Shown here piece after piece: positions 7,160 through 22,777 of a DNA stretch of 23,092 bases. The notes under the pieces are model-generated. The model worked only from the letters and a program-made list of their open reading frames with translations, was not told the origin of the DNA and did no database searches. Both the position numbers and the translations under genes were made by a program. Numbering within the stretch: position 1 is the stretch's first letter; every line of letters begins with the position of its first letter. The stretch comes from a virus: IMG/VR virus record IMGVR_UViG_3300022074_000394, positions 1 to 23,092 of that record. One strand, written 5' to 3'.

Positions 7160-7178
7160 CATAAGTGTATACTTATGT
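7160..7178 (+). promoter_or_regulatory. Putative phage promoter with overlapping dyad, upstream of the glycosyltransferase operon
   Basis: GTGTATA at 7165-7171 gives a -10-like TATACT (7168-7173) that ends exactly 5 nt before the ATG at 7179. No Shine-Dalgarno site and no recognisable -35 hexamer are present. The element sits inside an inverted repeat, CATAAGT-GTAT-ACTTATG (7160-7177), which could be an operator. The same core and spacing occur at other gene starts in the window. The predicted transcript begins at or next to the start codon. Confidence 0.55.
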
Positions 7179-8258
7179 ATGGATATATTGCTAACCGCAG
7201 ATTTTCGTAAAGGCTTATTTACTAATGGCCTTCAACAGAATATTGTTTTTTTAAGCAAACTTCTTCAAGAGCTGGGTCACAACCCCATGATAGTTGTAAA
7301 TCACTCAATAGATGAGTGTATCGATCCCCCTACTGGCATTTTGATTATGAATATAGATGAAGTTTATGATTATAATTATGATTATATTCTTCAGACATCA
7401 TTTACAATAGAAGCCGATATAATGTCTCGACTAAAGGAAAAGAGTCCTAGATGCAAAAATATACATATATATTATGGTAATGGAATGCTTTCTGCAATAG
7501 AATTAAGCCTTGAACTTTCCGACAGAAGGATGATCCCAATTAACCCTGCGTTAGTTGATGAAGTTTGGATTTCTCCTCATTATGAATTTTCAAAATCTTT
7601 TTACCAAACATACTATAAAACGAGCAGAGTCTTAACTATTCCTTATATATGGGATTCATTTTATGTGGATATCCATGAAGAGATATGGAACAAAGAGGGT
7701 AAAAGCTGTAAGTATGACCCAGGCGCGCCTAAAAATATAGCCATCGCAGAGCCAAATTTAAATTTCACAAAAAATGCTGTCCCCCCGATATTCCTAATAG
7801 AAGAATTGTACTCTCGCAATCCTGATCTTATTGAATCAGTTAATGTATATTGCTCGTCTAGATTGAAAGAAAAACACTATTTCCAGCAATTATTGAATTG
7901 TACTAAACTCCACAAAGATGGAAAAATCAATTTATTAAATCGCCATAAAATGAGTAAGATTCTATCTAGCGACTGTAGTGTTTTACTTTCACATAACTTC
8001 ATGAACGGTTTAAATTACACATATCTTGAGGCGTTACATTTTAATGTTCCATTAATTCATGACTCAACATATATCCAGGAAGCGGGCTACTATTATCCTC
8101 TTTTTGACTTTCAAAGTGGAGCGAGAGCTTTGGAAAAAGCATTGACTTTGCATGATGAAAATTTAGAAACTTACGAACAAAAAGCTAAAAATATATTACG
8201 CAAATACTCCCCACACAACCCTTTAGTAATCGAAGAGTACAAGAAGTTATTTATATGA
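7179..8258 (+). CDS. DUF2827-type glycosyltransferase (first of a tandem pair)
   Basis: Probable GT-B-fold glycosyltransferase acting in the cytoplasm; donor and acceptor are unknown. The 359 residues show the pattern I associate with DUF2827 proteins: NGLQQNIVFL near 16-25, VDEVWISPHY at 126-135, an EPN motif at 191-193, SHNFMNGLNYTYLEAL at 271-286, PLIHDS followed by GYYYP at about 291-307, and a terminal YSP-NP motif at about 343-348. Length fits a single-domain member. It is the first gene after the promoter-like element and overlaps the next gene by ATGA. The next gene is a clear paralogue with every one of these motifs in the same order, so the two arose by duplication. DUF2827 is largely uncharacterised; family membership is from memory of its motifs. 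Confidence 0.72.
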   Translation: MDILLTADFRKGLFTNGLQQNIVFLSKLLQELGHNPMIVVNHSIDECIDPPTGILIMNIDEVYDYNYDYILQTSFTIEADIMSRLKEKSPRCKNIHIYYGNGMLSAIELSLELSDRRMIPINPALVDEVWISPHYEFSKSFYQTYYKTSRVLTIPYIWDSFYVDIHEEIWNKEGKSCKYDPGAPKNIAIAEPNLNFTKNAVPPIFLIEELYSRNPDLIESVNVYCSSRLKEKHYFQQLLNCTKLHKDGKINLLNRHKMSKILSSDCSVLLSHNFMNGLNYTYLEALHFNVPLIHDSTYIQEAGYYYPLFDFQSGARALEKALTLHDENLETYEQKAKNILRKYSPHNPLVIEEYKKLFI

Positions 8259-9367
8259 AAATAGGTATAACTTTAGACATGTCTATTTCTTTTTGGGCAA
8301 ATGGAATGCAACAACATATAGTTTTTCTTTATGATTTATTTAAGAGAATGGGTCACGAATGTTACTATATAACACGACAGCCTCCGAAGAATAAAATACA
8401 CCTTAAACATAAAGCTATGGTTTTTGATGGTTTAATTAGAGATAAGAATGAAAAATTAGATTTGCTTATTATTGCTGGTTACGATATTGATTATAATGCT
8501 TACAGAATATTAAAAGAAAGAAATCCAAATCTTAAAATTATAATTGCCTATTTTTCAAATAAGTTTTATGTAGATAATTTCAATATTATGATGAAAAATC
8601 AATACAAAAATATTGATCTAAAGCTGAACCCAAAATCTACAAGTCAGTACATTGATCAAGTATGGGTCCTGCCTCATCATAAGTCGGGAATTGAATATAT
8701 TAAAACATACCACGACATAGATAATGTGGTAATTACCCCTATGATCTGGGAGCCTTCTTTTATTCAGGATAAAATTGTGGAACTTAAAAAAAATAACTTG
8801 AGCCCGTTCTTTCGTTCAGATCGAGTAAATAAAGTGTGTGTGTTTGAGCCAAATATCCACCCAATGAAAACATGCCTTATTCCATTAATGATCTGTGAAC
8901 GGCTTGAATCGATGAAACCTAAATCCTTAAACTCGGTCAATGTTTTTTGCGCTGAAAAGATAAGGTCTCAGGAATATTTTGAAGTTTTTGCTAACAGACT
9001 TAATATTGTCCAGAAAGATAACTTTTGCTACTTCAACAATCGCTGGTCGTCATTAAATACTTTGAGTAAATTTGGAAGTACGGTAGTTAGTCATCAAATT
9101 GACTGGGAGTTTAATTATGCTAATTTTGAGCAATTATATATAGGTTTACCTTTAATACATAACTGTCCGAGCCTCTGCGATGTTGGATATTATTATGAGG
9201 GGCATAATATTAAAATGGGTGCCAATCAATTATATAATGCTATCTTAAATCATGATGCAACTAAAGAGCAATATATTGAGCAGGCTCGAGAAAAATTAAA
9301 AGAATTTAGCCCTTTTGAGGGAAAAAATATTTTTGAATTTACCAAATTATTAAATGAAATTAAATAA
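8255..9367 (+). CDS. DUF2827-type glycosyltransferase (second of a tandem pair)
   Basis: Paralogue of the preceding gene and likely a GT-B glycosyltransferase. Matching motifs over 370 residues: NGMQQHIVFL at 16-25, IDQVWVLPHH at 133-142, FEPNIHPMKTCLIPLMICE at 197-215, SVNVFC at 227-232, VSHQIDWEFNYANFEQL at 278-294, PLIHN followed by GYYYEG at about 299-316, and an FSP near the C-terminus. The two copies differ strongly outside these blocks, so the duplication is old and the substrates may differ. Its ATG overlaps the stop of the first copy (ATGA), and its own end overlaps the next gene by 14 nt, giving a tightly coupled three-gene glycosyltransferase operon. Confidence 0.72.
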   Translation: MKIGITLDMSISFWANGMQQHIVFLYDLFKRMGHECYYITRQPPKNKIHLKHKAMVFDGLIRDKNEKLDLLIIAGYDIDYNAYRILKERNPNLKIIIAYFSNKFYVDNFNIMMKNQYKNIDLKLNPKSTSQYIDQVWVLPHHKSGIEYIKTYHDIDNVVITPMIWEPSFIQDKIVELKKNNLSPFFRSDRVNKVCVFEPNIHPMKTCLIPLMICERLESMKPKSLNSVNVFCAEKIRSQEYFEVFANRLNIVQKDNFCYFNNRWSSLNTLSKFGSTVVSHQIDWEFNYANFEQLYIGLPLIHNCPSLCDVGYYYEGHNIKMGANQLYNAILNHDATKEQYIEQAREKLKEFSPFEGKNIFEFTKLLNEIK

Positions 9368-12300
9368 AATTGATAAAAGTTTTTTTATAAACCTAGACCG
9401 AAGAGTTGATCGATTAGATCACATTAACAAAAACCTGCCATTTGACGCAGTTAGATTTAGTGCGGTAGATGCTAACAATCTAGACCTTAATGAACAAGTC
9501 GAGAATTTGTTCCATCGATGTCTGGATAAATTAACGAAAGCTGAAATAGCCTGTTCTCTCAGTCATTATATGCTATGGAAGCAATTAACTGAAGATGATT
9601 CAAGTGAAAATTATTTAATATTAGAGGATGATGTTGTGTTTAAAGATGGGTTTACTCAATTCTGGAATCACGTTTATAGCAATTATTTACCAGAAGATTA
9701 CAACTTAATTTACTTAGGCGGATGCCAGCCTTGGAATAAGCCTCATTACGGGAAAATATTAAAGAGTCATAATGAATATTTCTGTACCGTAAGGAGGAAT
9801 AACTTTTTCACTAAAGATGATCACTATTTTCATATGAATGCTCAATCTTATATTATTAGTAAGCGAGCTGCCCAACTTATGTGTGATCATTTAGAAAGAT
9901 TTGGGTTTGATTTAAAGAAAGGTCAAGGTCAAGATATTTTTATGGTAAAGTTTTTTGATAATAACCCCAAGTCAATTCTTCACCTCAATCCCCTTATGTC
10001 TTACCAGATTCATGAAGAAAATGATAATATAGAAAAAGACAAAAATTCAGATATAAGATCTGCAGAGGAGAAGTTTGGCGAGGAAAAAATTAAAGAAAAG
10101 ATTGATAAAATATCAGTTATTATTCCAACTGTTTGGATGGCGAATGACTTTCTTGTACAATCATTACTGGAATTAGATAAAAATGATAGTGTTCTTGAGG
10201 TTATTGTTATTAATAATAAAACTTCTAATACGCCTAGATGGATCAATTCTTTTCAAAAAGTCAGAGTGATTAAGCAAGAGCCTGGCCTTTATTTTAATGC
10301 GAGTGTAAATTTGGCAGTTCCTTTATGCAGGAGTAATATATGTTGTATTTTCAATGATGACATTACAGTCGATCAAGATATATTTAAATTTGTAATTGAT
10401 AATTATAATAAAGAATCTGGCTGCATGTTTATATCTCCAGACAGCATTAACTCCAAAACTTTAACAGCTCCAGAATTAAAAGAGCACCCCACCTGGCCTC
10501 CACATGGATCTGGGATGCTAATGTTTTTTAATCAATCTCATTTTACAAAAATCCCAAAACAATTAGTGCATCATTTTGGCGATAATTTTATATTTTCATC
10601 TTTTTTTGCTCTAGGGTTTAGAAATTATTTAATAAAAGGCTTCGCGGTAAATGGTTTAACTTCGGCAAGTCAAACATCTTCCGTATTCCCGACCATTAGA
10701 GAAGATTGGCGTGTTCATAAGGAAGTTTTTGAGAATATGACATATTATACCAAAGGCTCTAATTATGAATTTCCAAAAATTAAAACAATATCGAACAAGG
10801 AAATCCCTAAAAAAATTCATTTATCATGGAGGAATAAAAATGTACTAGACTCAGATTATGAGTTAATTAAAAAAGGGGCAAAAAACTTACAGATACTAAA
10901 CCCAGATTGGGATATCGAAGTTTACGATGACGAAGATATTAATAAGTGCTTAAGAGATTCATTGAATAGTGATGATTGGGAGTTAATTAAAAACAAAAAA
11001 ATCACAGAAAAGACGGACCTTTGGAGATTGCTCAAAACCTATAAGGAAGGCGGATTGTATATTGATATTGACAGGTATATAGATACGCCTATCTCTGAAA
11101 TAATTAACCCCGAAACAACATGTGTTTTGCCGACATATCAAGATGTAGATTTCTCTCAAGATTTCATTTTAACTTGTCCCGCAAATCCAATTATAGAAAA
11201 AGCTATAGCTAATAATATAAAATATAGAAAAGAAGGTAAACCTTTATTTTTTACTGGTGTCTACTCTTATATGCGCTCAGTTTGTGAAATGTTGCAACCA
11301 ATAAGCTTTCAGGGTTTAGAGAAATTAGATTGGGAAAAAGCAGAGCAGAACAGCATTCCAGATAGAGGAGATAATCCTGAATATTTTAACGATATCAGAG
11401 AAAAAATTAATGCCTGCAAGCATATGAAGACGTACAGAGAATCTGGCCCAGAGAATCATATATTATACAGAAATATTAATAAAGATTTTAATATTAGAAT
11501 TTTTGAAAAGGATAAGGCTGATTTTTACAATGGCGAGAAAGTAATTCACTGGAATACTGATACACAAAAACAGCATGAAGCATTGCAGGTCAAGTCATCA
11601 AATGAGCCAGTCTCATTAAATAGCAAAAAAGAATCTTTTATGAAACTCGCAAGCATGTGGCCAAATTTTTTAGACAAACCAAAGGGCTACACTAAAAAAA
11701 CCTTGCCTGTTGTTGATTGGCTTACTTATTGTGACAAAAATATTTCGCATCCTCAGCCAGATAAAGGCCTGTTTAGCTGTTATAATGGAGGTAAGGAAAT
11801 AGCAATCGTAATGATGTATACTCCAAACATATATGATTTTGCTGTATATTCCGAAAAAAGCATTAGGCAGTATGCAGAACATCAAGGTTATACACTGTAT
11901 GTATATAGAGACAATTTAAATAAATCGCAACACCCAAATTGGTCTAAGCCTCAGGCATTATTGAATCATATAGGCGGTCATAGCCATGTTATCTGGATGG
12001 ATTCAGACACTTTAATTTTTAATCCAGAAAAAAAATTTAGTGATATTATTGATAAATATTCTAATAAATATATTATTGCATGCAAAGACATTGGGGGTGA
12101 GAACGGATCTTTATTCAATAGTGGAGTGTTAATTTTTAAAAACCACCAATATATTAAAAATTTAATTACTCGATGGCGAGACTTTAACTGCGATAAAAGT
12201 TCTTTATATTCAAGCGGCGGAGATCAGGAAGTTTTATGCAATATAGTTAAGCGTAGCGATTCTACTGGTTTTAATCGTAAAATTTTACCATCTAGTGCAT

Positions 12301-12407
12301 TCAATACTGATCCGCGACTAGTGAATAATGATACATTTATTTTACACTTCATGGCTTATCCTGCAACCCTTAAAAAGATCTTTATGTCTTACTGGCATTC
12401 AGAATAA
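9354..12407 (+). CDS. Four-domain glycosyltransferase fusion (GT25-, GT2-, GT32- and GT34-like)
   Basis: A 1017-residue chain with four glycosyltransferase-like domains in series. Domain 1 (about 1-215) resembles GT25 LPS transferases: FFINLDRRVDRLDHI, CSLSHYMLW and LILEDDV (acidic EDD at 91-93). A charged linker (about 218-250) leads to domain 2 (about 252-470), GT2-like, with ISVIIPT and CCIFNDDI (DD at 335-336). Domain 3 (about 486-735) resembles GT32: KKIHLSW at 486-492, then TDLWRLLKTY and GGLYIDID (DxD at 571-573). Domain 4 (about 815-1017) resembles GT34: a WSKPQAL motif, VIWMDSD (DxD at 883-885), FNSGVLIF, GGDQEVL. All four keep acidic metal-binding motifs, so all may be active. There is no signal peptide or membrane segment, so it is probably cytoplasmic. 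It could build an oligosaccharide on one acceptor. Domain families are confident; sugars and acceptor are unknown. Confidence 0.85.
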   Translation: MKLNKIDKSFFINLDRRVDRLDHINKNLPFDAVRFSAVDANNLDLNEQVENLFHRCLDKLTKAEIACSLSHYMLWKQLTEDDSSENYLILEDDVVFKDGFTQFWNHVYSNYLPEDYNLIYLGGCQPWNKPHYGKILKSHNEYFCTVRRNNFFTKDDHYFHMNAQSYIISKRAAQLMCDHLERFGFDLKKGQGQDIFMVKFFDNNPKSILHLNPLMSYQIHEENDNIEKDKNSDIRSAEEKFGEEKIKEKIDKISVIIPTVWMANDFLVQSLLELDKNDSVLEVIVINNKTSNTPRWINSFQKVRVIKQEPGLYFNASVNLAVPLCRSNICCIFNDDITVDQDIFKFVIDNYNKESGCMFISPDSINSKTLTAPELKEHPTWPPHGSGMLMFFNQSHFTKIPKQLVHHFGDNFIFSSFFALGFRNYLIKGFAVNGLTSASQTSSVFPTIREDWRVHKEVFENMTYYTKGSNYEFPKIKTISNKEIPKKIHLSWRNKNVLDSDYELIKKGAKNLQILNPDWDIEVYDDEDINKCLRDSLNSDDWELIKNKKITEKTDLWRLLKTYKEGGLYIDIDRYIDTPISEIINPETTCVLPTYQDVDFSQDFILTCPANPIIEKAIANNIKYRKEGKPLFFTGVYSYMRSVCEMLQPISFQGLEKLDWEKAEQNSIPDRGDNPEYFNDIREKINACKHMKTYRESGPENHILYRNINKDFNIRIFEKDKADFYNGEKVIHWNTDTQKQHEALQVKSSNEPVSLNSKKESFMKLASMWPNFLDKPKGYTKKTLPVVDWLTYCDKNISHPQPDKGLFSCYNGGKEIAIVMMYTPNIYDFAVYSEKSIRQYAEHQGYTLYVYRDNLNKSQHPNWSKPQALLNHIGGHSHVIWMDSDTLIFNPEKKFSDIIDKYSNKYIIACKDIGGENGSLFNSGVLIFKNHQYIKNLITRWRDFNCDKSSLYSSGGDQEVLCNIVKRSDSTGFNRKILPSSAFNTDPRLVNNDTFILHFMAYPATLKKIFMSYWHSE

Positions 12408-12440
12408 TTAAAAAAAAATTTCCCAAAATTAATTTTTGAT

Positions 12441-12453
12441 TGTAACATAAAGT
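12441..12453 (+). promoter_or_regulatory. Putative promoter of the repeat-protein gene (variant element)
   Basis: TGTAACAT at 12441-12448 places a -10-like TAACAT (12443-12448) exactly 5 nt before the ATG at 12454, the same spacing as at three other genes. TTCCCA at 12420-12425, with a 17-nt spacer, is a weak -35 candidate. No Shine-Dalgarno site. This is the most divergent copy of the element, so confidence is lower. Confidence 0.35.
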
Positions 12454-13305
12454 ATGGCAAAGATATTCTCTACGGAGAGATTATCTCTGAATGGCGATAA
12501 TATTCGCATTCAGTCGACAGGCGCTAAGAAGTTTGATATTACAGACTCGAATAATAGCGTTCTGATTAGTCGCGACAGCATTGAAGCTGCTCATTCCAGC
12601 CTTAACGTTCAGGATGTTGACTTTGCTTCCAGCTTAACCGCTGTGGATGCTGAAGGTAACTCTAGCCTTAACGCTCAGGACATTGAGTTTGCTTCCAGCT
12701 TAACTGCTGTGGATGTTGAAGGTAACTCTAGCCTTAACGCTCAGGATATTGAGTTTGCTTCCAGCTTAACTGCTGTGGATGTTGAAGGTAACTCTAGCCT
12801 TAACGCTCAGGATATTGAGTTTGCTTCCAGCTTAACTGCTGTAGATGTTGAAGGTAACTCTAGCCTTAACGCTCAGGACATTGAGTATGCTTCCAGCTTA
12901 ACTGCTGTGGATATTGATGATGCTTCTAGCCTTAACGCTCAGGATATTGATGACGCTTCTAGCCTTAACGCTCAGGATATTGATGACGCTTCTAGCCTTA
13001 ACGCTCAGGATGTCACAAATACCTCTAGCTTAATGGCTGAAATTAACGAAACTAACAACAGCATTGATTCTAATGATGTTGTTGCTTTATCCGAGGCTCT
13101 TGGAGCAGGTATTGACTCTAAAACAGTTTCATTTGCAAGAGATTTTACTTCTGTACCAAGTGTTTCAGCTACACTGTTCAACGGTTCAGGAGATCCAATC
13201 ATTGGTACAATGGTTAGCGAAATCACCACAGGCGAGTGTACTGTAGTATTCTCTGATGATCTTCCATCTGCGAATTACGAATTAAAAATCTTGGCTTCTA
13301 TATAA
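12454..13305 (+). CDS. Ser/Asp-rich 11-residue repeat protein with lectin-like C-terminal domain
   Basis: Probable virion fibre or decoration protein. Residues 48-201 are fourteen uninterrupted 11-residue units of form SSLxAxDxxxx. The first ten alternate between two types (SSLNAQDIEFA and SSLTAVDVEGN), making a 22-residue higher-order unit; later units are simpler (SSLNAQDIDDA). The repeats contain no lysine, arginine, cysteine or proline and are strongly acidic. Residues about 223-283 form a compact beta domain (VSFARDF, PSVSATLF, DPIIG, VVFS, ANYELKILA) that matches the C-terminus of the connector-like gene on the other strand. Codon use looks less AT-rich than the glycosyltransferase genes, suggesting high expression. 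A promoter-like element precedes it and a strong terminator follows. The repeat fold (beta-solenoid or hendecad coil) is unresolved. Its position directly after six glycosyltransferase domains makes it a candidate acceptor. Confidence 0.7.
   Translation: MAKIFSTERLSLNGDNIRIQSTGAKKFDITDSNNSVLISRDSIEAAHSSLNVQDVDFASSLTAVDAEGNSSLNAQDIEFASSLTAVDVEGNSSLNAQDIEFASSLTAVDVEGNSSLNAQDIEFASSLTAVDVEGNSSLNAQDIEYASSLTAVDIDDASSLNAQDIDDASSLNAQDIDDASSLNAQDVTNTSSLMAEINETNNSIDSNDVVALSEALGAGIDSKTVSFARDFTSVPSVSATLFNGSGDPIIGTMVSEITTGECTVVFSDDLPSANYELKILASI
12595..13056 (+). repeat. Tandem coding repeats, 14 x 33 bp with a 66-bp higher-order period
   Basis: Fourteen in-frame 33-bp units run without interruption. Units 1-10 pair into five 66-bp units (12595-12660, 12661-12726, 12727-12792, 12793-12858, 12859-12924). 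The second to fourth are almost identical at DNA level, including synonymous positions, which indicates recent duplication or gene conversion. Four 33-bp units follow, the last one degenerate. Confidence 0.92.
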
Positions 13306-13328
13306 GATTTTTATTAATCATTAACCTA

Positions 13329-13356
13329 GGTAGCCCTTTCGGGGGCTACCTTTTTT
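13329..13356 (+). terminator. Rho-independent terminator after the tail/glycosyltransferase arm
   Basis: A perfect 8-bp stem, GGTAGCCC (13329-13336) and GGGCTACC (13343-13350), with a 6-nt TTTCGG loop, followed by six T (13351-13356). It lies 24 nt after the stop of the repeat-protein gene and separates it from the J-domain gene. Confidence 0.92.
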
Positions 13357-13357
13357 A

Positions 13358-13372
13358 TGTGTATAAAACATT
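13358..13372 (+). promoter_or_regulatory. Putative phage promoter of the J-domain gene
   Basis: TGTGTATAAAA begins 2 nt after the terminator's T-run. GTGTATA is at 13359-13365 and the -10-like TATAAA (13362-13367) ends exactly 5 nt before the ATG at 13373. There is no Shine-Dalgarno site, and the -35 position falls inside the terminator hairpin, so recognition must rely on the GTGTATA core. The terminator implies a fresh start is needed here, which supports the call. Confidence 0.6.
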
Positions 13373-14050
13373 ATGGACGATTGGACAGATCTTTTCAAGA
13401 AAAGACCAAAAGATGAACTTGGAGCATATACTCCCGAGAATGCTCAATTTAAAGAATCGAATGAGGTTTCGCGCGAAATAAATGAAGAAGCTCACAAAAA
13501 AGCTTTAGATAAAAAATTTAAAAAACTCAAGTATCAAATATCTTACTTGGATCTAGAGCTAGAGGATACTACTGCAAACTTTAAGCATGCACAAAAAACT
13601 TTCATACAGACAATGTTTGAGTATTGTTCTCGCAAGAAAATAAATTCTCCATTTGAAACTTTTGAATCTAAATCTCAAAAAGCCAAAGATAACCCCAAGC
13701 AAATTAAGGAGCTTTATAGAGAAATTGTTAAAATTACTCACCCAGACAAGAATCGCAATTTATCGGATGCAGAATCTGAATATATGGCCGAACTATACTA
13801 TGAGGCTAGCGAAGGTAAAACTTCTGGAGACTTTCATAAAATCTTAAGTGTTGCAATGGATTTAAATATAGAAATCCAAAATATAAACCCAGAGATACTT
13901 AACACTATGAAATCCGAGATTAAAAAAATGAACAAGAAAATATCAAAAATGAAAAATGATATTATGTATAAATGGTTTTACTCAAATCCAAATCAACAGC
14001 AGAAGATATTTCAAAATATCACTAAAAACTGCAAGCCAATTAATCAATAA
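13373..14050 (+). CDS. J-domain (DnaJ-like) protein
   Basis: Likely a co-chaperone that recruits host DnaK (Hsp70). The diagnostic HPD tripeptide is at residues 123-125, after a helix II sequence (ELYREIVKIT) and before helix III (about 134-147, SEYMAELYYEASEG). The J-domain is internal, about 85-165, rather than at the N-terminus. It is flanked by a charged coiled coil at about 40-75 and a Lys/Met-rich helix at about 175-205. There is no glycine-phenylalanine linker or zinc-finger region, so this is a J-domain protein of the DnaJ class III type, not a full DnaJ. It is transcribed alone, from a promoter-like element right after a terminator, and its 3' end overlaps the convergent connector-like gene by 11 bp. 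A role in head or tail assembly, or in taking over DnaK, is inference. Confidence 0.75.
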   Translation: MDDWTDLFKKRPKDELGAYTPENAQFKESNEVSREINEEAHKKALDKKFKKLKYQISYLDLELEDTTANFKHAQKTFIQTMFEYCSRKKINSPFETFESKSQKAKDNPKQIKELYREIVKITHPDKNRNLSDAESEYMAELYYEASEGKTSGDFHKILSVAMDLNIEIQNINPEILNTMKSEIKKMNKKISKMKNDIMYKWFYSNPNQQQKIFQNITKNCKPINQ

Positions 14051-14936
14051 TAAAAGCCGCGACTTCTAAGGCGTAGTTGTTTGAAGGTGTTTTTGAAGAG
14101 AACACAAATCTAACTCCACCTAGTGATACTGCACCTTCTATCCTGTAAGCTATAATTGGGTCATCTTCATCAGCACTTCTCAATGTTGCTAATACTGTGG
14201 GCGTTGTTTGCGGGCTAAATTCATTTGACCAATCAATAAATATTGAATCCTGACCTTGTGGTATAATTGTGGTTTTTGCATATCCCTTAATCTTACTTGC
14301 TGCAATATCAAGCTTAATCTGATCAATTTGACTCTGTAGGTTATCCAACTGAGCAACAGCTTCTTTGAGATCTTCAACTTCCTGTACAAGATCTTTACTT
14401 TCTTGTATTTGATAATTGGCATCTTCTACTCCACCATCAACACCTGCAACTTGTAGGGGTAGTGATCCATACATATTATATGAATGAACCATTTTTTCTA
14501 ATAACGCCATTGCATCTCTTGAGGAGTCTTGAAAGATTTTTGCAGAGGCATTTTTAGATGTAGATGTAGCTATGGATCTTCTTATTGAAGTATCGCCCTC
14601 TCTTAGTTCTACCCAATCTGTCACTCCAGCTGTAGTAGTTGTAGTTGAGGAAGTTACTGTTGCATTGCGTAAAACATTTCTAGCTTGCTTTTGCATATAG
14701 TCTTTTAAATAAAGCTGAGTAAAGATGGCCTTTTCTTCATATTGAAGAGCTGGCTCTACTTCGTCTTTAGTTTTATTTAAATGAAAATCTGTATTCAATA
14801 AAGTGTTAAGTTGCCCCAGATTAACATCAAGGTAACCTGAGATCAGAAGAGCATTCCTCTCTCTTTCTAGAGATGAAGAATGATCTCCGAACTCAATGTC
14901 CCATATATGATATGCTAGCTCGCCGAGCTGATTCAT
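14040..14936 (-). CDS. Putative head-tail connector with fibre-like C-terminal domain
   Basis: Probable virion protein, 298 residues. The N-terminal part (about 1-165) is helical: LISGYLDVNLGQLNTLLNT at about 31-49, EEKAIFTQLYLKDYMQKQA at about 67-85, DWVELREGD at about 106-114, then LEKMVHSYNMYG near 145-156. Its place after the coat gene suits a connector or adaptor, but that is partly recalled pattern. A coiled coil follows at about 178-215 (LVQEVEDLKEAVAQLDNL). Residues about 230-298 form a beta domain (PTVLATL, DDPIIAY, RFVFSSKTPSNNYALEVAA) that matches the C-terminus of the repeat protein on the plus strand. The start ATG overlaps the stop of the SAP gene (TAATG) and lacks a Shine-Dalgarno site, implying translational coupling. 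An adaptor carrying a surface-exposed fibre domain is unusual; a neck or head fibre is the alternative. Confidence 0.6.
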   Translation of the reverse strand: MNQLGELAYHIWDIEFGDHSSSLERERNALLISGYLDVNLGQLNTLLNTDFHLNKTKDEVEPALQYEEKAIFTQLYLKDYMQKQARNVLRNATVTSSTTTTTAGVTDWVELREGDTSIRRSIATSTSKNASAKIFQDSSRDAMALLEKMVHSYNMYGSLPLQVAGVDGGVEDANYQIQESKDLVQEVEDLKEAVAQLDNLQSQIDQIKLDIAASKIKGYAKTTIIPQGQDSIFIDWSNEFSPQTTPTVLATLRSADEDDPIIAYRIEGAVSLGGVRFVFSSKTPSNNYALEVAAFIID

Positions 14937-15322
14937 TATTCGTTAATGATTCTTAGTATTTCTTCAGCTTTTTTTGATTTTGGATCAACAATAGGCTTAG
15001 ATGATGTGCTTGCGCCGTACCTTCCATTAGTCCTATTTTCGTACTCTTTAATTAATTTGTTTTTTAGAGTTGTTTTTGTTCCAGAAGGAAATACTCCAGC
15101 TTGCACTGCAATTTCCTGAAGCTGCGAGAGGCCCATAGTGGAAACCGCATCCTCAAAGCTCTCTCCGCTAGCCAATTGAAATGGATCTCTCTTGCTAACC
15201 GACATTAATTCTTCTACTGTTTTTGCAACATCTTTACGATCATCTGCTTTTTTACCATCTGCATATTGCATTGGTTTCTTTGTAGAAGCTTTTTTAGTTG
15301 TTTTCTTTTTACTTGTTGCCAT
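14936..15322 (-). CDS. Small basic SAP-motif protein
   Basis: A 128-residue protein with a very basic N-terminus (MATSKKKTTKKASTKK), followed at about 68-97 by a SAP-like helix-turn-helix (LQEIAVQAGVFPSGTKTTL then KLIKEY). SAP motifs usually bind DNA, and small SAP-like proteins are common beside phage coat genes. It may contact DNA at the head portal or act in connector assembly. The gene lies after the coat-gene terminator, has its own promoter-like element, and ends in a 1-nt overlap (TAATG) with the connector-like gene, so these two form a small separate operon. Confidence 0.6.
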   Translation of the reverse strand: MATSKKKTTKKASTKKPMQYADGKKADDRKDVAKTVEELMSVSKRDPFQLASGESFEDAVSTMGLSQLQEIAVQAGVFPSGTKTTLKNKLIKEYENRTNGRYGASTSSKPIVDPKSKKAEEILRIINE

Positions 15323-15344
15323 AATAAGTCTTATATTTTAAAGT

Positions 15345-15364
15345 TGTATACACATATAATATGT
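15345..15364 (-). promoter_or_regulatory. Putative phage promoter of the SAP/connector operon
   Basis: Read on the minus strand, TGTGTATACAA has GTGTATA at 15353-15347 and a -10-like TATACA at 15350-15345. It is 22 nt from the ATG, so unlike the other copies it predicts a leader of about 15 nt. An imperfect 13-bp palindrome, ACATATAATATGT (15352-15364), overlaps its upstream edge. It lies just after the coat-gene terminator, where a new start is needed. Confidence 0.5.
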
Positions 15365-15373
15365 TTAATAAAC

Positions 15374-15402
15374 AAAAAATCCACCGAAAAGGTGGATTTT
15401 TT
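15374..15402 (-). terminator. Rho-independent terminator after the major capsid gene
   Basis: A perfect stem, ATCCACC (15379-15385) and GGTGGAT (15391-15397), with a 5-nt loop. It is extended to 12 bp by six A (15374-15379) pairing with six T (15397-15402). It is symmetrical and could act in both directions, but only the minus strand has a gene ending here, 26 nt upstream. Confidence 0.92.
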
Positions 15403-15427
15403 GATAAAGAATATTGATTACAATATC

Positions 15428-16537
15428 TTACACTACGATACCGAAAAGAGCTCGGTTGTCAAGAATCATACGACCTTCTTCAACAGATCCATAGTATCCG
15501 ATCTTGGACTGGCGAACACTGTATTGATCGTCAGCAACCAAGGAGAACTCGGAACCCGTTTCAGAATCGGTAGCAACTGCACGAAGCATAGACTCAACAC
15601 GCTTGTCAAGACCAATAACGATTTCGTGATCAGCATCAGCAAATCCTACACCAGTCGAAACACGGTTAGCATCACTGTCAAGAGCTTCGAAAAGCTTATT
15701 GAAGCGTTGACCTTTACCCATTTCTTGAAGCTCCATGATATTAATACCATAGAACTCAGGAATACCACCGTTAGAATAAACAGCCTCACGCATACTATCA
15801 GTAGCTGCGATGTCTGTGTTATTTCCGCGAGTGTTAATTGGGTTGTAAGCCATTTCACGAAGACCTTGTACAACTTCAGGAGAAACGATAAGGTCAGTTA
15901 CTCCACGACCACCAAGACCGCCTTCAGGTGTTCCACCTGTCCATGCAGTATTGATACGTTTACCAAGAGTAAGAAGCTTGTTGAAGTCGTCAAGGATTAG
16001 ACGAGATTGTCCAACGTTAGCAGCGACATTGATGTGTGACTTACCTTTAGTTGAAGCTTCTGCGAGAGCACCAAGCATAAGAGTTGCAGAATTGCGCTCT
16101 TGCTTAAGTAGAACTTCTTGTGCTACACGAGTAAAAGATTTACTGATAACGTCCATGCGGGAGCGTTGAGCATAACGTTTATCGAAATCAACGGCACTAT
16201 CAAGGCGATAGGTTGTGAATTTCATTTCACCACCGATAGGTGTTACAGTGTTTGTGGGAAGACCTCCAGGCACTGCTTGACTCCATACTGTGACATAGTC
16301 TTCGTCAGTAACGTCATAGTAAAGATCCATAGGAATGCTTGGGCTTTCATCCGCACTAAATTGAAAGTTTGAGAAAAGATTACTCAAGGTTGGAGCTTGA
16401 TTAATAACCTTTGCGAGAACTGGTCCAATAAATTCTGCTAGAGCAACTTGAGCTTCGTATGCGACATCACGATTTTTGGATGCCATAGCTTTTACTAGCT
16501 CGACTTGTTCTTCTGTTCTTTTTAATGTAATTTTCAT
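15428..16537 (-). CDS. Major capsid protein
   Basis: Main shell protein of the head, 369 residues, with an HK97-type fold expected from position and pattern. The N-terminal helix and arm (about 1-60) lead to an extended-loop-like segment with IPMDLYYDVTDED and VWSQAVPGGLP, then a long spine helix (about 130-165, SFTRVAQEVLLKQERNSATL). A peripheral-domain segment has a GGLGGRGVTDLIVSP motif near 208-222, and C-terminal beta strands (EIVIGLDKRVESMLRA, YYGSVEEGRMIL) complete it. It lies after the decoration gene in the usual head order and ends at a strong terminator. A purine-rich site (AAAGAAAGG) sits 13 nt before the ATG, rather far. Codon use is visibly less AT-rich than most of the window, as expected for a highly expressed gene. 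Confidence 0.88.
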   Translation of the reverse strand: MKITLKRTEEQVELVKAMASKNRDVAYEAQVALAEFIGPVLAKVINQAPTLSNLFSNFQFSADESPSIPMDLYYDVTDEDYVTVWSQAVPGGLPTNTVTPIGGEMKFTTYRLDSAVDFDKRYAQRSRMDVISKSFTRVAQEVLLKQERNSATLMLGALAEASTKGKSHINVAANVGQSRLILDDFNKLLTLGKRINTAWTGGTPEGGLGGRGVTDLIVSPEVVQGLREMAYNPINTRGNNTDIAATDSMREAVYSNGGIPEFYGINIMELQEMGKGQRFNKLFEALDSDANRVSTGVGFADADHEIVIGLDKRVESMLRAVATDSETGSEFSLVADDQYSVRQSKIGYYGSVEEGRMILDNRALFGIVV

Positions 16538-16567
16538 TTTTTAAATTTTACCTTTCTTTATTAAAAA

Positions 16568-17251
16568 TTATGCACAGTCGATTTTGACAATGTAATATGC
16601 TCCTTTTTGAAATCCAGCTTTTCCGAAAACATTAGTTCCACCTTGAGAACCAGCTTCGTCATCACGATCTCCGACAGCAAGAATTTGACCAACAATTTGG
16701 TTGGTTGCACTACCACGATCAACAGGCTCAACCTGACCATCTGCAGCGGTTTGCAATACTTGTCCAACTGTACCAGCTCCTGTAAGAGCGTCAGCTGAAA
16801 GAGTAACTAAACCTTTAGATAGAACAGGTACTGCTTCACCAGGAAGAACTCCGAAAAGTTCGTCTTTCTTTACTGGATTGTAAAGCAAGTTCTCGCCGTT
16901 TTCGTCGCGAGTAACGGTTTGACGAAGCGTGATTCCAATGCAGCTTTCGGTTGCAGTTCCAGCAGTTGGGGAAACACTAAGAGCTGCTTGAGGGTAAGTG
17001 TTGCGTCCAACATGTGGATAGTCAGTTTTTCCAAGCAAACTTGCTGGATTCGATGTTACATCTACTGGATCCCAGTCACCCGTAAGATCTCCTGCGGATA
17101 CGGTTACGAATACTCCAGCATCTCCTTGAGCTGTTGACCTTTTAGAAGAGTCAGACAGGTCGATAAAGTCACTAAGATTTCCAGCACTTTTGAATAAGTT
17201 TACGACATCATGTTCATCGTAATCTCTAAACGGTAATAGTCTAATAGCCAT
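16568..17251 (-). CDS. Capsid decoration protein (putative)
   Basis: A 227-residue, beta-rich, Gly/Thr/Val-rich protein between the protease/scaffold and coat genes, the usual place for a decoration or head-stabilising protein. Features seen: DAGVFVTVSAGDLTG near 44-58, a DENGENLLYNPV segment near 116-127, and a VGQVLQTAADGQ hairpin near 161-172. It ends in GAYYIVKIDCA. There are no membrane segments. AAAGGA lies 10 nt before the ATG, a normal Shine-Dalgarno site. Codon use resembles the coat gene, consistent with high copy number in the virion. The exact family is not recognised; a head fibre is the alternative. Confidence 0.65.
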   Translation of the reverse strand: MAIRLLPFRDYDEHDVVNLFKSAGNLSDFIDLSDSSKRSTAQGDAGVFVTVSAGDLTGDWDPVDVTSNPASLLGKTDYPHVGRNTYPQAALSVSPTAGTATESCIGITLRQTVTRDENGENLLYNPVKKDELFGVLPGEAVPVLSKGLVTLSADALTGAGTVGQVLQTAADGQVEPVDRGSATNQIVGQILAVGDRDDEAGSQGGTNVFGKAGFQKGAYYIVKIDCA

Positions 17252-17262
17252 TTTTAATTATT

Positions 17263-17268
17263 CCTTTA
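17263..17268 (-). promoter_or_regulatory. Shine-Dalgarno site for the decoration gene
   Basis: AAAGGA on the minus strand, about 11 nt before the ATG at 17251. It contrasts with the genes that follow the GTGTATA element, which have no such site. Confidence 0.6.
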
Positions 17269-17270
17269 TT

Positions 17271-18800
17271 TTAGTAGTTAATTGTTAAATTGTCTTCAGA
17301 AAAAGCTTTCTGAAACTTATCCTTCAAAGATAACTCTTTTTCAGAAGATTCAGCATTGTTATTAGCGACAACTTCTTCTTCTGCTTCTACAGAATCAATA
17401 GCTTCTTCAACTACTTCTTCTTCAGTTTCTTTGCCAGACTTAAGTTCTTCAAGTCTTTTTTCTACAGCCTCAGCAAGCTTTGAATTAAATTCTTCTTGCT
17501 GTTGAGCGATAAATTCTTTGTTCTGATGCTTAAGTACGACTTGAAGTTTTTCTTGGAAAGCTGCAAAAGCTTCTTCAGATTCATCAAGGTTCTTAAGTTC
17601 ACTAGCTACAACCTTACGACTTTCGTCATCAAGTTCATAGATGTCTTCTACCACAGACATTCTCGAATCAAAACGAGCGACTGCCTCTTGTTGTTTTTGG
17701 CTTTGCTCTAATTCAGAAACGCGCTCTTTTGCAGTTTCGAGTTCTTCACGAAGCTGCTTAACCTCTTCTGCATTTTCTTCTGCAGCCTTGGCCAGTTCAG
17801 CTTTTTCAGTCTCAAGCTTATCTTTCTCTTGCACAAAAGAATCATTGCGCTCAAGAATAGCGTCGTTAATAATTTTAGAAACGGTTGCCACAGCCTCTTC
17901 AGAAAACTTCTTATTAGAAGTCTGCTCTTCGAGGGCTGACACTAAGTTATTTAAAATTTCGTTATTGTCCATAATAGTACTTTTTTTGTTAATTACATTA
18001 GAATTGTTATTTTGTGAAATATTTTTTTTAGTTTTTTCGTGCTTTTCCTCAATTTCATGTTTTGCACTAACAGTCAAACCTTTCACCTCTGCTGCTGGAT
18101 TAGATGTAAATCCAATACCCAGAGGTAGGATTTGCCCTTTAATTAAGCGGTGTATAGGAGATCCGTCTTTCATTTTGCCCTCTCCCCCGAAACTTTTTAA
18201 GTTACCTTTTAATTCATCAATTATTTTTTCATCCTCAATAATCTCTGCTTCGCTCAAATTGTCGCTTCCGACAGCTAATACAAAATCATTAAAGCCGATT
18301 TCCCAGCTAGCTGAAACTTGGTGATAAAATTCACTTTCAGGATCAACTGACTGCTCAACAAGATTCGCAAACTGAGGATTTACAGTTTTATATATTAATG
18401 AAGCAAGTGCAATGTTAAATGGCTGATCCATTTCGGCAGCTTCTTCAGCTGTTATAAGTTCATTGTCAAGAAAGCTAGCAAAAGATGCTGATACTATGTG
18501 TCCAACTACTTTTTGTTTTTGATGTTCTATATTGGTTGGCTTGTGCTTAAATTGATTTAAAATTTCTACAGCTGACTGAGAGTTAATGCCATCTCCATTT
18601 TTATTAAACTTATTAACGAGAGCTCCATTAAATGCTACAGCTAGCAAATCTAAATTTTTATCAAGATCAACATCATCAGGTATAATCTCTTTTAAAGAAT
18701 CTAGTGAAGCCTTACTAATACCAATTTCAGGAGAATCAATTCCTCCAGAAGCTAAAATAGTATTAGAGAATTTTGTAGTATATTTAAATTTAGAACTCAT
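17271..18800 (-). CDS. Fused prohead protease and scaffold protein
   Basis: Head-assembly protein, 509 residues. The N-terminal part (about 1-245) looks like a prohead protease: a KPTNIEHQKQKVVGHIVSASF strand region with candidate catalytic His93, and a QVSASWEIGF segment with candidate Ser163 or Ser165. A low-complexity linker rich in Asn, Ser and Lys follows (about 255-276). The C-terminal part (about 277-509) is a scaffold: a long acidic coiled coil (about 320-375), a second helical region, a poly-Glu stretch (about 452-475) and a short C-terminal helix (LSLKDKFQKAF) of the kind that binds coat protein. Met277 begins the scaffold exactly at the linker end and could be an internal start, as in lambda C/Nu3, though no clear Shine-Dalgarno site precedes it. 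The gene follows portal, and a GTGTATA element overlaps the portal stop. Confidence 0.75.
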   Translation of the reverse strand: MSSKFKYTTKFSNTILASGGIDSPEIGISKASLDSLKEIIPDDVDLDKNLDLLAVAFNGALVNKFNKNGDGINSQSAVEILNQFKHKPTNIEHQKQKVVGHIVSASFASFLDNELITAEEAAEMDQPFNIALASLIYKTVNPQFANLVEQSVDPESEFYHQVSASWEIGFNDFVLAVGSDNLSEAEIIEDEKIIDELKGNLKSFGGEGKMKDGSPIHRLIKGQILPLGIGFTSNPAAEVKGLTVSAKHEIEEKHEKTKKNISQNNNSNVINKKSTIMDNNEILNNLVSALEEQTSNKKFSEEAVATVSKIINDAILERNDSFVQEKDKLETEKAELAKAAEENAEEVKQLREELETAKERVSELEQSQKQQEAVARFDSRMSVVEDIYELDDESRKVVASELKNLDESEEAFAAFQEKLQVVLKHQNKEFIAQQQEEFNSKLAEAVEKRLEELKSGKETEEEVVEEAIDSVEAEEEVVANNNAESSEKELSLKDKFQKAFSEDNLTINY

Positions 18801-18818
18801 AAATATGTTTATACACTA
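18801..18818 (-). promoter_or_regulatory. Putative phage promoter of the protease/scaffold gene
   Basis: On the minus strand, AGTGTATAAAC overlaps the portal stop codon (TAG at 18818-18816). The -10-like TATAAA (18813-18808) ends 7 nt before the ATG at 18800, predicting a leader of no more than a base or two. No Shine-Dalgarno site and no -35 match (AGCCAA at the expected place). Confidence 0.5.
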
Positions 18819-20870
18819 ATTTTGTTGTTTTTGGCTATGATATAATATAGCAGAAGGATATTGTGTCAACTCATTCTTTGCACTAATATCTAAAATATCA
18901 TTAATTGTTGAAAGTTCTGCGATCTTGTTTGTATTCTTAATGCAAGATAACATTGTGCGTTTCCATTGGCTTTTTTCTTTCGAACAAACTATTGATTCGC
19001 AAAGCTGCCCAATAAGTTGCTTTTGAGAATCGTCTATGCTTTTAAGTTTTTTATGTTTTTTAAAATTTTCCAAAGCATAAGATTCTAAATCTTGTATTTT
19101 ATATATAACTTCCTGAACATTATCCCTGCCATATTCTTCAGCGGCTTGTAATGGTATTTGATTTGTTCCACTAGGTCTACCTGGACTCTGTTGTGTCTTA
19201 TTTACAGTTTCGTCCGTTTTAGTGATTTGCTCTTGCTGTTGCTCTATCTGCTCCTCCTGAAGCTCTCTATCTTTCTCTGACTGTACGCTTTCAATCATTG
19301 GTATCCCACCAACCAGCGGATTATAATAACCTTTTTCTCTCTCCTCTACATAGCCTTCCTGAGATGCGCTTAAATCTTTTGGATTTGGGTACAGTCCAGT
19401 TTGCATGGATTTAATACCTTGCTCTGGAGTAAGTATTCCAATTTCTAGCAGTCTTGTGATAACTCTATGGAATTGAACTTCGTCTTTAATATCGATTTCT
19501 TCAAATTTTGCGGTTGGATAACTTTTTAACCCCATGTTTCTGCAAACTTCTTTAATTTGGGGTTGAAGAAAGTCATTTAAGAATGCATTCCTAGACTCTT
19601 TTAATCTCTCCAAGAAAATCTCTGCTTTGACTTGGGTGTTGGAAAACTTTTCGCTACCAACAATAATATTCTGCAATCCTTCTTTAATATCTTCGTTGAC
19701 AATCTTATACTTCTCTGCACCTAAAACTTTATTTAAATCTGGTATAACAAACTGAGCTTTAGTAGTATAGTCTGCAATTAAAGCTCGACCTACGCTTTCG
19801 TTCTTAAATAGCTCCTGCATAGCCTTAAGATTGTTTGGATTCACTCCACCCTTATCAGGCTCAGCCCCCATTGTAATCAATAGAATAACATTTTCAACAG
19901 TTCGGCAAATAGCTTGATCAATCTTTTTTAGTTCTATTTTCCAGTTTAAGTCATCTAATACGGGAAATCCAAAGGGCACCGCAAATGGCTCATAGTCCTG
20001 TTTTTTGTAAAATGAGTAGATTAGTTTTTGTGAATCAAGCTCAACCTTAATACCCTCTCTATTAAAAGATCCCTCTTTAACTTTTTTCTTCATCTCAGGG
20101 GTCAGTGACTCAAACACTTTTTTATCTTCTTCAGTCTTAGGGTCTCTTAATTTCTCTAACTCATAATCTGATAATACTTTTTTATATATGCCATCCTGGA
20201 ACGACGTAGCTTTCTCTATGACAATATCATAGGGATTAAGAAGCATATATTTAACTGGCAGCTGCCCAGACTTAAGGGTTTGTGATGCGTATACATAGTT
20301 TAATTTCAGCAAATCTTCCGAGCTAAATTTACCATCTACTCTATACAGAAATATATTTCCAGACCTATAATACTCGCGAAAATACTGATCTTTTATTTTC
20401 CATATATTAATTTTCTTAAGCCAGCCATCAATGAACTTTTTTGACTTTTCATTATCTCCCTCTAAATAGATTGGTGAATTTGAAAATTCAGCCATAATGT
20501 CTATTGCATTTCTGAAAATTGAAATATTAGCATAAGCTTTTTGACACAACTCAATTGCATCCCTGACATTCACTCCGTCAGCAGAATAATCATAAGGAAG
20601 TAATCCGTTTCTTATATTAGTATACTTGTCGGACTTTGGTTTTTTTGAGATTATGTTTCTCCTGCTTGTGGTAGTTCCATCATAACCAACTCTTCTATTT
20701 GTTGAAACAGTAGCTGAATTAGCTATCGCTTCTTGGGTATAAAAACTTTCGCCAGCTGTTTCAGGTAATGTATCGAGAAGGCTCGGCATCTCTTTTGATT
20801 GTGCACCCTGTACTGGCTTGAATTTATTCCAGTATTCCGATTTTTTATTGTATTTTCTTTTATTACTCAC
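18816..20870 (-). CDS. Portal protein
   Basis: Dodecameric portal through which DNA enters and leaves the head, 684 residues. Typical portal features: an N-terminal Ser/Thr-rich arm; a helical segment with VRDAIELCQKAYANISIFRNAID at about 98-120; and PIYLEG followed by WLKKINIW, EYYRSGNIFLYRV. A central stem region and LKESRNAFLNDFLQPQIKEV suit the wing/stem helices, and a Gln-rich C-terminal region (EEQIEQQQEQITK) suits the crown. It lies directly after terL in standard order. The start is GTG at 20870, supported by the promoter element whose -10 ends 5 nt upstream. No Shine-Dalgarno site precedes it, so a leaderless GTG start is implied. Confidence 0.85.
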   Translation of the reverse strand: MSNKRKYNKKSEYWNKFKPVQGAQSKEMPSLLDTLPETAGESFYTQEAIANSATVSTNRRVGYDGTTTSRRNIISKKPKSDKYTNIRNGLLPYDYSADGVNVRDAIELCQKAYANISIFRNAIDIMAEFSNSPIYLEGDNEKSKKFIDGWLKKINIWKIKDQYFREYYRSGNIFLYRVDGKFSSEDLLKLNYVYASQTLKSGQLPVKYMLLNPYDIVIEKATSFQDGIYKKVLSDYELEKLRDPKTEEDKKVFESLTPEMKKKVKEGSFNREGIKVELDSQKLIYSFYKKQDYEPFAVPFGFPVLDDLNWKIELKKIDQAICRTVENVILLITMGAEPDKGGVNPNNLKAMQELFKNESVGRALIADYTTKAQFVIPDLNKVLGAEKYKIVNEDIKEGLQNIIVGSEKFSNTQVKAEIFLERLKESRNAFLNDFLQPQIKEVCRNMGLKSYPTAKFEEIDIKDEVQFHRVITRLLEIGILTPEQGIKSMQTGLYPNPKDLSASQEGYVEEREKGYYNPLVGGIPMIESVQSEKDRELQEEQIEQQQEQITKTDETVNKTQQSPGRPSGTNQIPLQAAEEYGRDNVQEVIYKIQDLESYALENFKKHKKLKSIDDSQKQLIGQLCESIVCSKEKSQWKRTMLSCIKNTNKIAELSTINDILDISAKNELTQYPSAILYHSQKQQN

Positions 20871-20904
20871 AAGCTATTATACACAAAGTTAAAGTAAAAG
20901 TCTA
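20871..20904 (-). promoter_or_regulatory. Putative phage promoter of the portal gene
   Basis: On the minus strand, TGTGTATAATA carries a perfect -10, TATAAT (20881-20876), ending 5 nt before the GTG start. TAGACT (20904-20899) stands 17 nt upstream and matches four of six -35 consensus bases. It is the best match to a host sigma-70 promoter among the copies. Confidence 0.6.
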
Positions 20905-20917
20905 TAAAAGTTAAAAG

Positions 20918-22777
20918 TTAACTTATAAACATTGGCTGAAATGTGCTTGCTACATTATCGGCCTTAATGTTCTGCATGTCATGTAATACTTTCACCATCC
21001 AGGTTCCAAGCACTAAAGCTGAATAGGAATCTTTCCTCGCCTTATCTGGACCAGTCTGCCTTCTTAACTCCGTAGGTAGACCAAAAGTTTGAGTTCCTTG
21101 CGGTGAGGTTGTAATTTGAATTAAAGCACATTGATTTTTAGTCATATTTATCATATCGTACTGATGCTCTATGAAGTCGATCATTTTTGCTGCGCCAGCT
21201 TGCTTTTGCTCATCATCAGAAAGTCTTAAAAATTTAAGCTTATCTATGGGTATTTTTTTAGCTCTCTGCTTGTGGTATGCGTCATCTACAGCTCTAGCTC
21301 CAAACCAAATTTTTTTATGATCAAAGTTGGCTTGCAGTAACTCGTTAGCTCTCCGTATCCAGTCTGATGTAGGCTTGCGCAATATTAAATACTTATAATT
21401 TTTCTTATCGTATTGAATTTTAGCTGCCCTTAACTCATCTTTATATGTATCCATTTTATCAAATTCTCCATCGATACTCTTAATTTTAATATTTTGAGAT
21501 TTAAATAATTGCGATTCATTTACGGCATTAATAAATTGTACCCCTCCATTGTAATCTCCTACTATAGCTATAATATTAAAATTCTTAATTAAATAATGAA
21601 AGTAGAAGATGTGATCCCTCAAAGGAGTTCCAGACATGGCATAGGAATGAACTAAGGTTGAAGTGCCCCTGTCCTTATGGTACTTTAATATATGCATTGC
21701 AAAGTCATCACTACTTTCACTTTCAGACCAAGAAGGGTCAAAGGCCAGTATGTATTCATCCTCTGGATTGCCCTTAATTTCTACATGAGGCTCTTCCCCA
21801 TCCCTAACAGTGCAAGCTGCCATCCTAGAAGTCTTAAAGTATCCAGAGCTGTCATCTGTAAATAAAGCTCCAAACTCCCGCTCAAACTGGGATTGACTCA
21901 TTGTAGCTTTAGCTTGAGTAATGAGATTTTGATCGTATAATTGCTTTGGAGCGCAATCATAAGAAAACTGCATTATACATCTAGTAGCTTTATCTGTTTG
22001 ATTTTCTATTAAATCTTCAAATTGACTATACAGCTTATACATATATTCAAATTTATAACTAGCAGAAGATAGCATTATTAATTTATTGTTTGGCCAAACA
22101 TACCTTTCATCTTCTTTCATTTTGCCTTGATCTATTAATTTTGTTTCTAGATTGTACAAATCTTCTCTCTGAGTTGGATTTTCAACAACGGAAAGGAAGG
22201 GAACAATAACCTCATTGTAAATTCTTTCTGGCATCAATAAAAACTCATCAATAATAATTCGATGAAACCTAAAACCACGAAGTTTAGATCCGTCACCAAG
22301 AGGTAGAGCTCTGATTCTACTCCTGCCTATCTCCATTAGCCACTCGTCATTACTTTTTGATTTCTTAGTAATGCAATCGGCCAGCATTTTAGCTTCAGGC
22401 TTGCTGGCGATATCTTCTATTTTTTTGAAAATCTGCTTAGACTGCCTAAATGATGCAGCTAATATACCAATTTCAACACCCTGATTTAATATCGCATCAA
22501 GAAAAGCATATATGCCTGTCGTGAAAGATTTAGACATACCACGAGACCACACACCCATAAAATAGTCAGTCTCAAACATAGCCTTAATAGCCATGTGTTG
22601 AAAAGGAAACAAGTCCACTCCAGCAACCAAGTTGGTGGTAAATGTTATATTATCTTTTAAGAATTTATATAAATTTTCTTTAGCTTCATCTTCTTCAAGT
22701 AAGCCTTCTATATTAAAAATCTCCCTATTAATATCTTCCTTTTTTCTTCTGTTTTGATTACCTTGATTCCAAGCCAT
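20918..22777 (-). CDS. terL: Terminase large subunit
   Basis: Packaging motor, 619 residues. The ATPase half has a Walker A variant, WSRGMSKS, at 77-84, a Walker B, IIIDE, at 174-178 with the catalytic Glu, and a coupling motif LSSAS at 236-240. The nuclease half has an RNase H-like acidic triad: Asp347 (ILAFDPSW), Asp408 (AIVGDYNGG) and Asp498 or 499 (RAVDDAYHKQ). The length is normal for a full two-domain large terminase. The ATG follows the stop of the upstream ERCC4-like gene by one base (TAACATG), and a GAGGAG Shine-Dalgarno site stands 9 nt before it. A small terminase gene is not in the window. Confidence 0.93.
   Translation of the reverse strand: MAWNQGNQNRRKKEDINREIFNIEGLLEEDEAKENLYKFLKDNITFTTNLVAGVDLFPFQHMAIKAMFETDYFMGVWSRGMSKSFTTGIYAFLDAILNQGVEIGILAASFRQSKQIFKKIEDIASKPEAKMLADCITKKSKSNDEWLMEIGRSRIRALPLGDGSKLRGFRFHRIIIDEFLLMPERIYNEVIVPFLSVVENPTQREDLYNLETKLIDQGKMKEDERYVWPNNKLIMLSSASYKFEYMYKLYSQFEDLIENQTDKATRCIMQFSYDCAPKQLYDQNLITQAKATMSQSQFEREFGALFTDDSSGYFKTSRMAACTVRDGEEPHVEIKGNPEDEYILAFDPSWSESESSDDFAMHILKYHKDRGTSTLVHSYAMSGTPLRDHIFYFHYLIKNFNIIAIVGDYNGGVQFINAVNESQLFKSQNIKIKSIDGEFDKMDTYKDELRAAKIQYDKKNYKYLILRKPTSDWIRRANELLQANFDHKKIWFGARAVDDAYHKQRAKKIPIDKLKFLRLSDDEQKQAGAAKMIDFIEHQYDMINMTKNQCALIQITTSPQGTQTFGLPTELRRQTGPDKARKDSYSALVLGTWMVKVLHDMQNIKADNVASTFQPMFIS

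Follow-up and report, generated by a model that had tools for sequence, protein, structure and literature searches.

A GTGTA element as a probable late and middle promoter, with predicted leaderless mRNAs, in an uncultivated marine phage family

The window analysed here is a viral contig of 23,092 nt (23 kb; IMG/VR record IMGVR_UViG_3300022074_000394), in which the heptamer GTGTATA recurs shortly upstream of gene starts. Its head gene cluster lies on the minus strand. That strand carries terL (20918–22777), matched to the PHROG terminase (E 3.7e-28) and carrying a GGAG site, followed by a 684-aa gene at the portal position (18816–20870, GTG start), a 509-aa head-cluster gene (17271–18800), a 369-aa gene at the major capsid position (15428–16537) and a 128-aa gene (14936–15322). 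The plus strand carries a 225-aa gene (13373–14050) and a 359-aa gene (7179–8258), glycosyltransferase-like by appearance. Since a PHROG search with the portal-, protease- and capsid-position proteins of the window gave no match, these names, including protease/scaffold for the 509-aa product, denote position only. The element serves the portal-position, 509-aa, 128-aa, 225-aa and 359-aa genes; terL and the Shine-Dalgarno (SD)-led capsid-position gene are without it and were used as controls.

The window holds eight copies of GTGTATA where 2.26 would be expected, and one of 100 shuffles reached eight. Five copies lie on the sense strand upstream of genes 7179, 13373, 15322, 18800 and 20870, exactly where the original prediction had placed them, and the remaining three (2286 and 11895 on the minus strand, 18150 on the plus strand) are antisense within genes. 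The accompanying claim, that chance would yield a few copies not clustered at starts, also held: a simple binomial, which ignores the AT-richness of intergenic DNA, gives p ~3e-9 for five of eight copies falling at most 30 nt upstream of the 14 starts. A weight matrix trained after exclusion of the window and its nearest relatives placed all five real sites among the 9 best of about 46,000 positions.

At three of these sites the gap between GTGTA and the start codon is 9 nt and the predicted transcript is leaderless: 7165–7171 (+, ATG 7179, predicted start 7179), 13359–13365 (+, predicted start 13373) and 20878–20884 (−, GTG 20870, predicted start 20870). The G004 ortholog of the 7179 gene likewise carries the element, at a gap of 10. 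The copy at 18810–18816 (−), whose first G doubles as the last base of the upstream gene's stop codon, has a gap of 11 before ATG 18800, which predicts a start at 18802 and a 2-nt leader, and at 15347–15353 (−) GTGTA is located 26 nt before ATG 15322, with a predicted start at 15339 and a 17-nt leader. As announced, a -10-like hexamer ends exactly 5 nt before the start codon in four cases (7179, 12454, 13373 and 20870), 7 nt before 18800 and 22 nt before 15322. The variant put forward for gene 12454 is TTGTA (12440–12444, +), ranked 15th by the matrix; it does stand at the same 9-nt gap, but the site itself is doubtful because single-mismatch cores are barely enriched in the family. As for the -35 candidates, the one of the portal copy is present (TAGACT-17-TATAAT), whereas the weak one before 12454 was absent among the scan hits listed, which comprise all but the 16 weakest.

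Two copies directly follow strong terminator-like hairpins, as had been noticed: one hairpin (13328–13351, +) lies directly before the 13359 element, and a hairpin with a U-tract recurs before the orthologs; the other (15373–15403, −) precedes the 15353 element. Repeated ACTTT pentamers (20885–20917, −) occupy the short stretch that separates the portal element from the stop codon of terL. They recur upstream of many portal orthologs and could form an upstream activating box that may bind an activator.

The search for position and strand bias in relatives, suggested with the original prediction, gave a genome-wide, strand-specific signal conserved at orthologous genes. The family set comprised 85 related contigs (1.5 Mb) with 930 non-redundant starts, picked mechanically and blind to the motif. 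GTGTA-containing 6-mers and 7-mers led an unbiased count upstream of open reading frames (ORFs), and among the 1024 5-mers GTGTA ranked first 9–20 nt upstream of starts (157 versus 10.7 expected), followed by 5-mers that overlap it. Its reverse complement was found 6 times versus 8.1 expected. Between GTGTA and the start codon, 56 genes have 9 nt and 26 have 10 nt, with a tail to 17, whereas only 2 genes have 8 nt. The four bases 3′ of GTGTA are almost never G, the seven bases 5′ are A/T-rich and nothing further upstream is conserved, in line with a single -10-like element without a -35. GTGTA itself is nearly invariant, whereas TATAAT-like continuations vary, and cores with one altered base show hardly any enrichment.

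An independent replicate was assembled from loci fetched with a candidate sigma factor that shares about 41% identity with its counterpart in the relative L005 (described below). In its 153 non-redundant starts, from a distant lineage, GTGTA again came first (20 versus 1.2), with a modal gap of 9 (10 genes) and none at gaps 1–8; the gap-9 sites among those listed have a pyrimidine before ATG. The same analysis gave no GTGTA signal in stretches of P-SSM2, HTVC008M, T4 and Staley.

We then compared orthologous genes, counting distinct upstream regions. GTGTA stands at gap 9–17 before 18 of 19 portal-position orthologs, none of which has an SD-like site (0/19), and before 31 of 35 orthologs of the 509-aa head gene. 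Orthologs of the 13373 gene carry the element in four of five cases, and in those four a terminator is visible upstream. For the 128-aa gene the element is again displaced, with GTGTA at gap 18–40 in 19 of 22 orthologs and an SD-like site in 9 of 22. Internal controls behaved differently: GTGTA was found in 0/36 terL orthologs (gap 9–40), 0/29 capsid-position orthologs (gap 9–17), 24 of which have an SD-like site, and 0/27 orthologs of a 227-aa gene.

Across the family, SD-like sites precede only 2 of 153 genes with GTGTA at gap 9–17, versus 20 of 39 at gap 21–34 and 171 of 721 genes without the motif. A pyrimidine occupies position -1 in 55 of 56 gap-9 genes versus 342 of the 715 genes that lack the motif (p 6e-16). 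Where the start codon is 18–40 nt off, 29 of 48 genes have a pyrimidine-purine (YR) step at +9/+10, counted from the A of GTGTA, as opposed to 7–17 of 48 at the other offsets examined. Transcription starting at +10, which coincides with the start codon at gap 9, would account for the SD absence, the -1 pyrimidine, the YR step and the sharp lower limit of the gap. These signals, indirect but concordant, suggest that transcripts start on, or a few nucleotides before, the start codon.

In the mechanism we propose, GTGTA would act as a single-element, -10-like promoter without -35 for late and part of the middle genes. RNA polymerase would start 10 nt after its final A, mostly on the start codon's first base or 1–8 nt before it; the mRNAs would therefore be leaderless or nearly so, without an SD site. 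When the element lies at least 20 nt upstream, the leader would often hold one. Leaderless transcription predicts just such a fixed distance from the start codon, which the original prediction noticed and left unexplained.

A fixed distance together with SD absence in the same genes would also fit a translation signal, an RNA element recruiting the ribosome instead of a promoter. Several observations speak against it: the distance distribution is one-sided, SD sites return where the element lies further away, the YR step persists at +9/+10 even with the start codon elsewhere, and copies occur right after terminators. Moreover, GTGTA is commoner at genes whose neighbour upstream has the opposite orientation (26 of 62 genes versus 38 of 316 tightly packed same-strand genes, p 2e-7). 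On the one-sided distances, the YR step and this strand-switch enrichment we rejected a translation signal, to which we give hardly any credence.

Motif-bearing genes include those for portal- and head-position proteins, PhoH, tail and virion proteins, a ribonucleotide reductase and sugar-nucleotide enzymes, a content that points to late genes and probably some of the middle ones. In G001 (203 kb), GTGTA is rare in a region of small genes (114.9–152.5 kb) with rIIA and rIIB: 3 of 82 versus 36 of 150 (p 3e-5), a comparison in which early and late classes were inferred from gene content and the boundaries of the early-like region set after viewing the map. The intergenic DNA of this region holds 15 TTGACA versus 2.4 expected, several with -10-like boxes behind. 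It probably represents early genes, which would be read from ordinary TTGACA-type promoters.

As to a likely factor for reading GTGTA, relatives encode a protein of 225–260 aa with sigma-70 region 2 about 2 kb upstream of terL. In L005, which is 99.6% identical to the window's right end along a 3.85-kb overlap and extends past it, this gene lies at 1133–1831, that is 1.6–2.3 kb beyond the right edge of the window. All 23 aligned members matched Sigma70_r2 at E up to 0.1 (best 4.3e-6), and 5 of the 23 weakly matched sigma-70 region 4 (best 0.0028). Six of seven long viral contigs were hit in the Pfam search; G003 was missed there and its gene found by tblastn (L059, L106). Between regions 2 and 4, four cysteines (C88, C91, C103 and C115 in L005 numbering) are invariant, and this segment looks like a possible metal-binding insert. 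A PDB profile search with the phage sigma gave no significant match, and no related sigma was found in the named phage records. This conserved protein would be the specificity factor, acting on the host core polymerase. The gene opening the set that leads to it (L005 178–762) itself carries the element at gap 9, and the sigma may thus promote its own expression in a positive loop.

Alternatively, GTGTA could be read by a housekeeping or alternative sigma of the host, as a host -10 box of leaderless genes, the phage sigma doing something else. Cellular -10 boxes adjoining ORFs and giving leaderless mRNA are documented in Deinococcus-Thermus (PMC12340547), and the TANNNT portion of the copies in the window looks like a host -10 box. 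Four genome matches included bins from different phyla, and a host assignment from them was not trusted. Against this, the invariant part is GTGTA while the TATAAT-like continuations vary, the rII region of G001 holds few GTGTA sites and shows another signal, of TTGACA type, and phages without this sigma family lack the GTGTA signal, though their hosts differ. We consider reading by a host sigma unlikely.

Shortness and fixity of the motif would also suit an operator for a repressor or activator, or a promoter read by a phage RNA polymerase instead of a sigma; the late promoters of phiKZ and AR9 are short and read by phage polymerases (PMC5312081). A symmetric operator is contradicted by the strong strand asymmetry, and an operator or palindrome was discarded since the reverse complement is not enriched. 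A multisubunit phage RNA polymerase was likewise set aside: no Rpb2-type polymerase turned up in five long relatives, while all 14 controls were positive, and a search of the 203 and 163 kb contigs for the two-barrel catalytic motif gave chance-looking matches only. The search for a T7-type polymerase was negative, but no control genome was positive either. Taken as one explanation, operator or phage polymerase appears very improbable.

Several points weigh against a GTGTA promoter read by the phage sigma. The AlphaFold model of the sigma is of moderate quality (pLDDT 71, pTM 0.37), and Foldseek matches in PDB are weak (best E 0.03), most of the leading ones being sigma factors or holoenzymes. 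The link between sigma and motif rests on co-occurrence, and G001 and G002 encode one or two other sigma-like proteins (L086 5896–6510, L103 6961–7539 and L103 3294–4439, all on the minus strand), for which reason the region-2 sigma is likely, rather than shown, to be the reader. Gene starts were chosen mechanically, the gap 12–17 class shows no single standout YR offset, and the rule against G after the core accounts for part of the SD deficit at gap 9–12. On balance, promoter geometry, start position and SD absence are supported by the sequence patterns, and we hold with good confidence that GTGTA is a late/middle promoter, probably read by the phage sigma and giving leaderless or near-leaderless mRNAs.

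The original prediction had likened the elements to T4 late promoters, possibly needing a phage factor. Promoter logic and a conserved phage sigma bear this out in outline, and T4 late transcription (gp55/gp33/gp45) does share with the present case a phage sigma, a -10-only element and late genes. The T4 system itself did not stand: the enriched core is GTGTA rather than TATAAATA, and the gp55 family (phrog_234) was not found in five long relatives whereas the T4 control matched at 2.5e-70. In addition, the hhalign profile comparison of the family sigma with T4 gp55 was not significant, and the bacterial beta-clamp family PF00712 was not found, gp33 and T4-type clamps not being searched for.

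A nearer parallel is phiEco32, whose sigma gp36 reads a single -10-like element tAATGTAtA without -35, with a start 6–8 bp downstream (PMC8948821). Both systems have a phage sigma, a single -10-like element with TGTA, middle and late genes, and about the same start spacing as inferred here for GTGTA. They differ in that the core here is GTGTA, with ATGTA variants scarcely enriched, and in that the element adjoins the start codon, while each of the two phiEco32 sites examined has a leader with an SD-like site. The family sigma also carries the four invariant cysteines, a difference from gp36. Its best PHROG, for two members, is phrog_1740, which holds gp36, and the matches are marginal (E 5.9e-5 and 0.0013, compared with 1.9e-45 for gp36 itself); hhalign against gp36 was not significant and no pairwise similarity was detectable.

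For leaders, as distinct from promoters, the comparison is with the Thermus phage phiYS40, most of whose middle and late transcripts are described as leaderless (PMC3594737); phage and host are others and the candidate factor here is a phage sigma. The Deinococcus-Thermus boxes resemble GTGTA in a position that lets transcription begin at or close to the start codon, but they are cellular TANNNT boxes whereas GTGTA belongs to a virus with its own sigma. On our best reading, the closest working likeness would combine phiEco32 gp36 promoters with phiYS40-style leaderless messages.

Other features were recorded along the way. Three adjacent genes of the window (7179–12407) have a glycosyltransferase look and possibly modify sugars of the virion or host surface. 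Coding repeats of 33/66 bp with SSLNAQD-like units lie at 12529–13122 in a 283-aa gene, and an ORF leaving the right edge (22779–23090, −) has a weak ERCC4-type nuclease match (E 1.9e-4). Among the relatives, a tmRNA gene (L088 6699–7062, G001 66699–67062; Rfam RF00023, 130 bits) has an unusual predicted tag peptide, GNKNRVKAFGLKAKKLALAA. At about 155.88–155.92 kb of G001, the palindrome TACACTAGTGTA is common to two divergent genes and would form two overlapping back-to-back GTGTA promoters.

The family is abundant and has so far been seen here only in metagenome-derived contigs. Related terminases are encoded by 553 stretches in viral contigs. Against 50,697 named phage records, every terminase match was below 60% identity and none covered 80% of the query, and the capsid-position protein had no match. 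In open-licence literature we found no description of a GTGTA promoter code or of this sigma. What appears new is that the core is an invariant GTGTA, that transcription is predicted to begin on the start codon, that a candidate sigma can be named and that the pattern extends across the family.

For this marine phage family, the GTGTA code would make late operons predictable from sequence and start codons correctable, and it names a likely specificity factor. More tentatively, and with less than even confidence, we suggest that this uncultivated lineage uses leaderless translation in a developmental switch, the late sigma placing transcript starts on late start codons while early genes keep SD leaders. 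If so, changing sigma would also change the mode of translation initiation, possibly with tuning of the host ribosome by the phage. A phage sigma that also sets the translation start mode would, if confirmed, link two regulatory steps that are usually treated apart.

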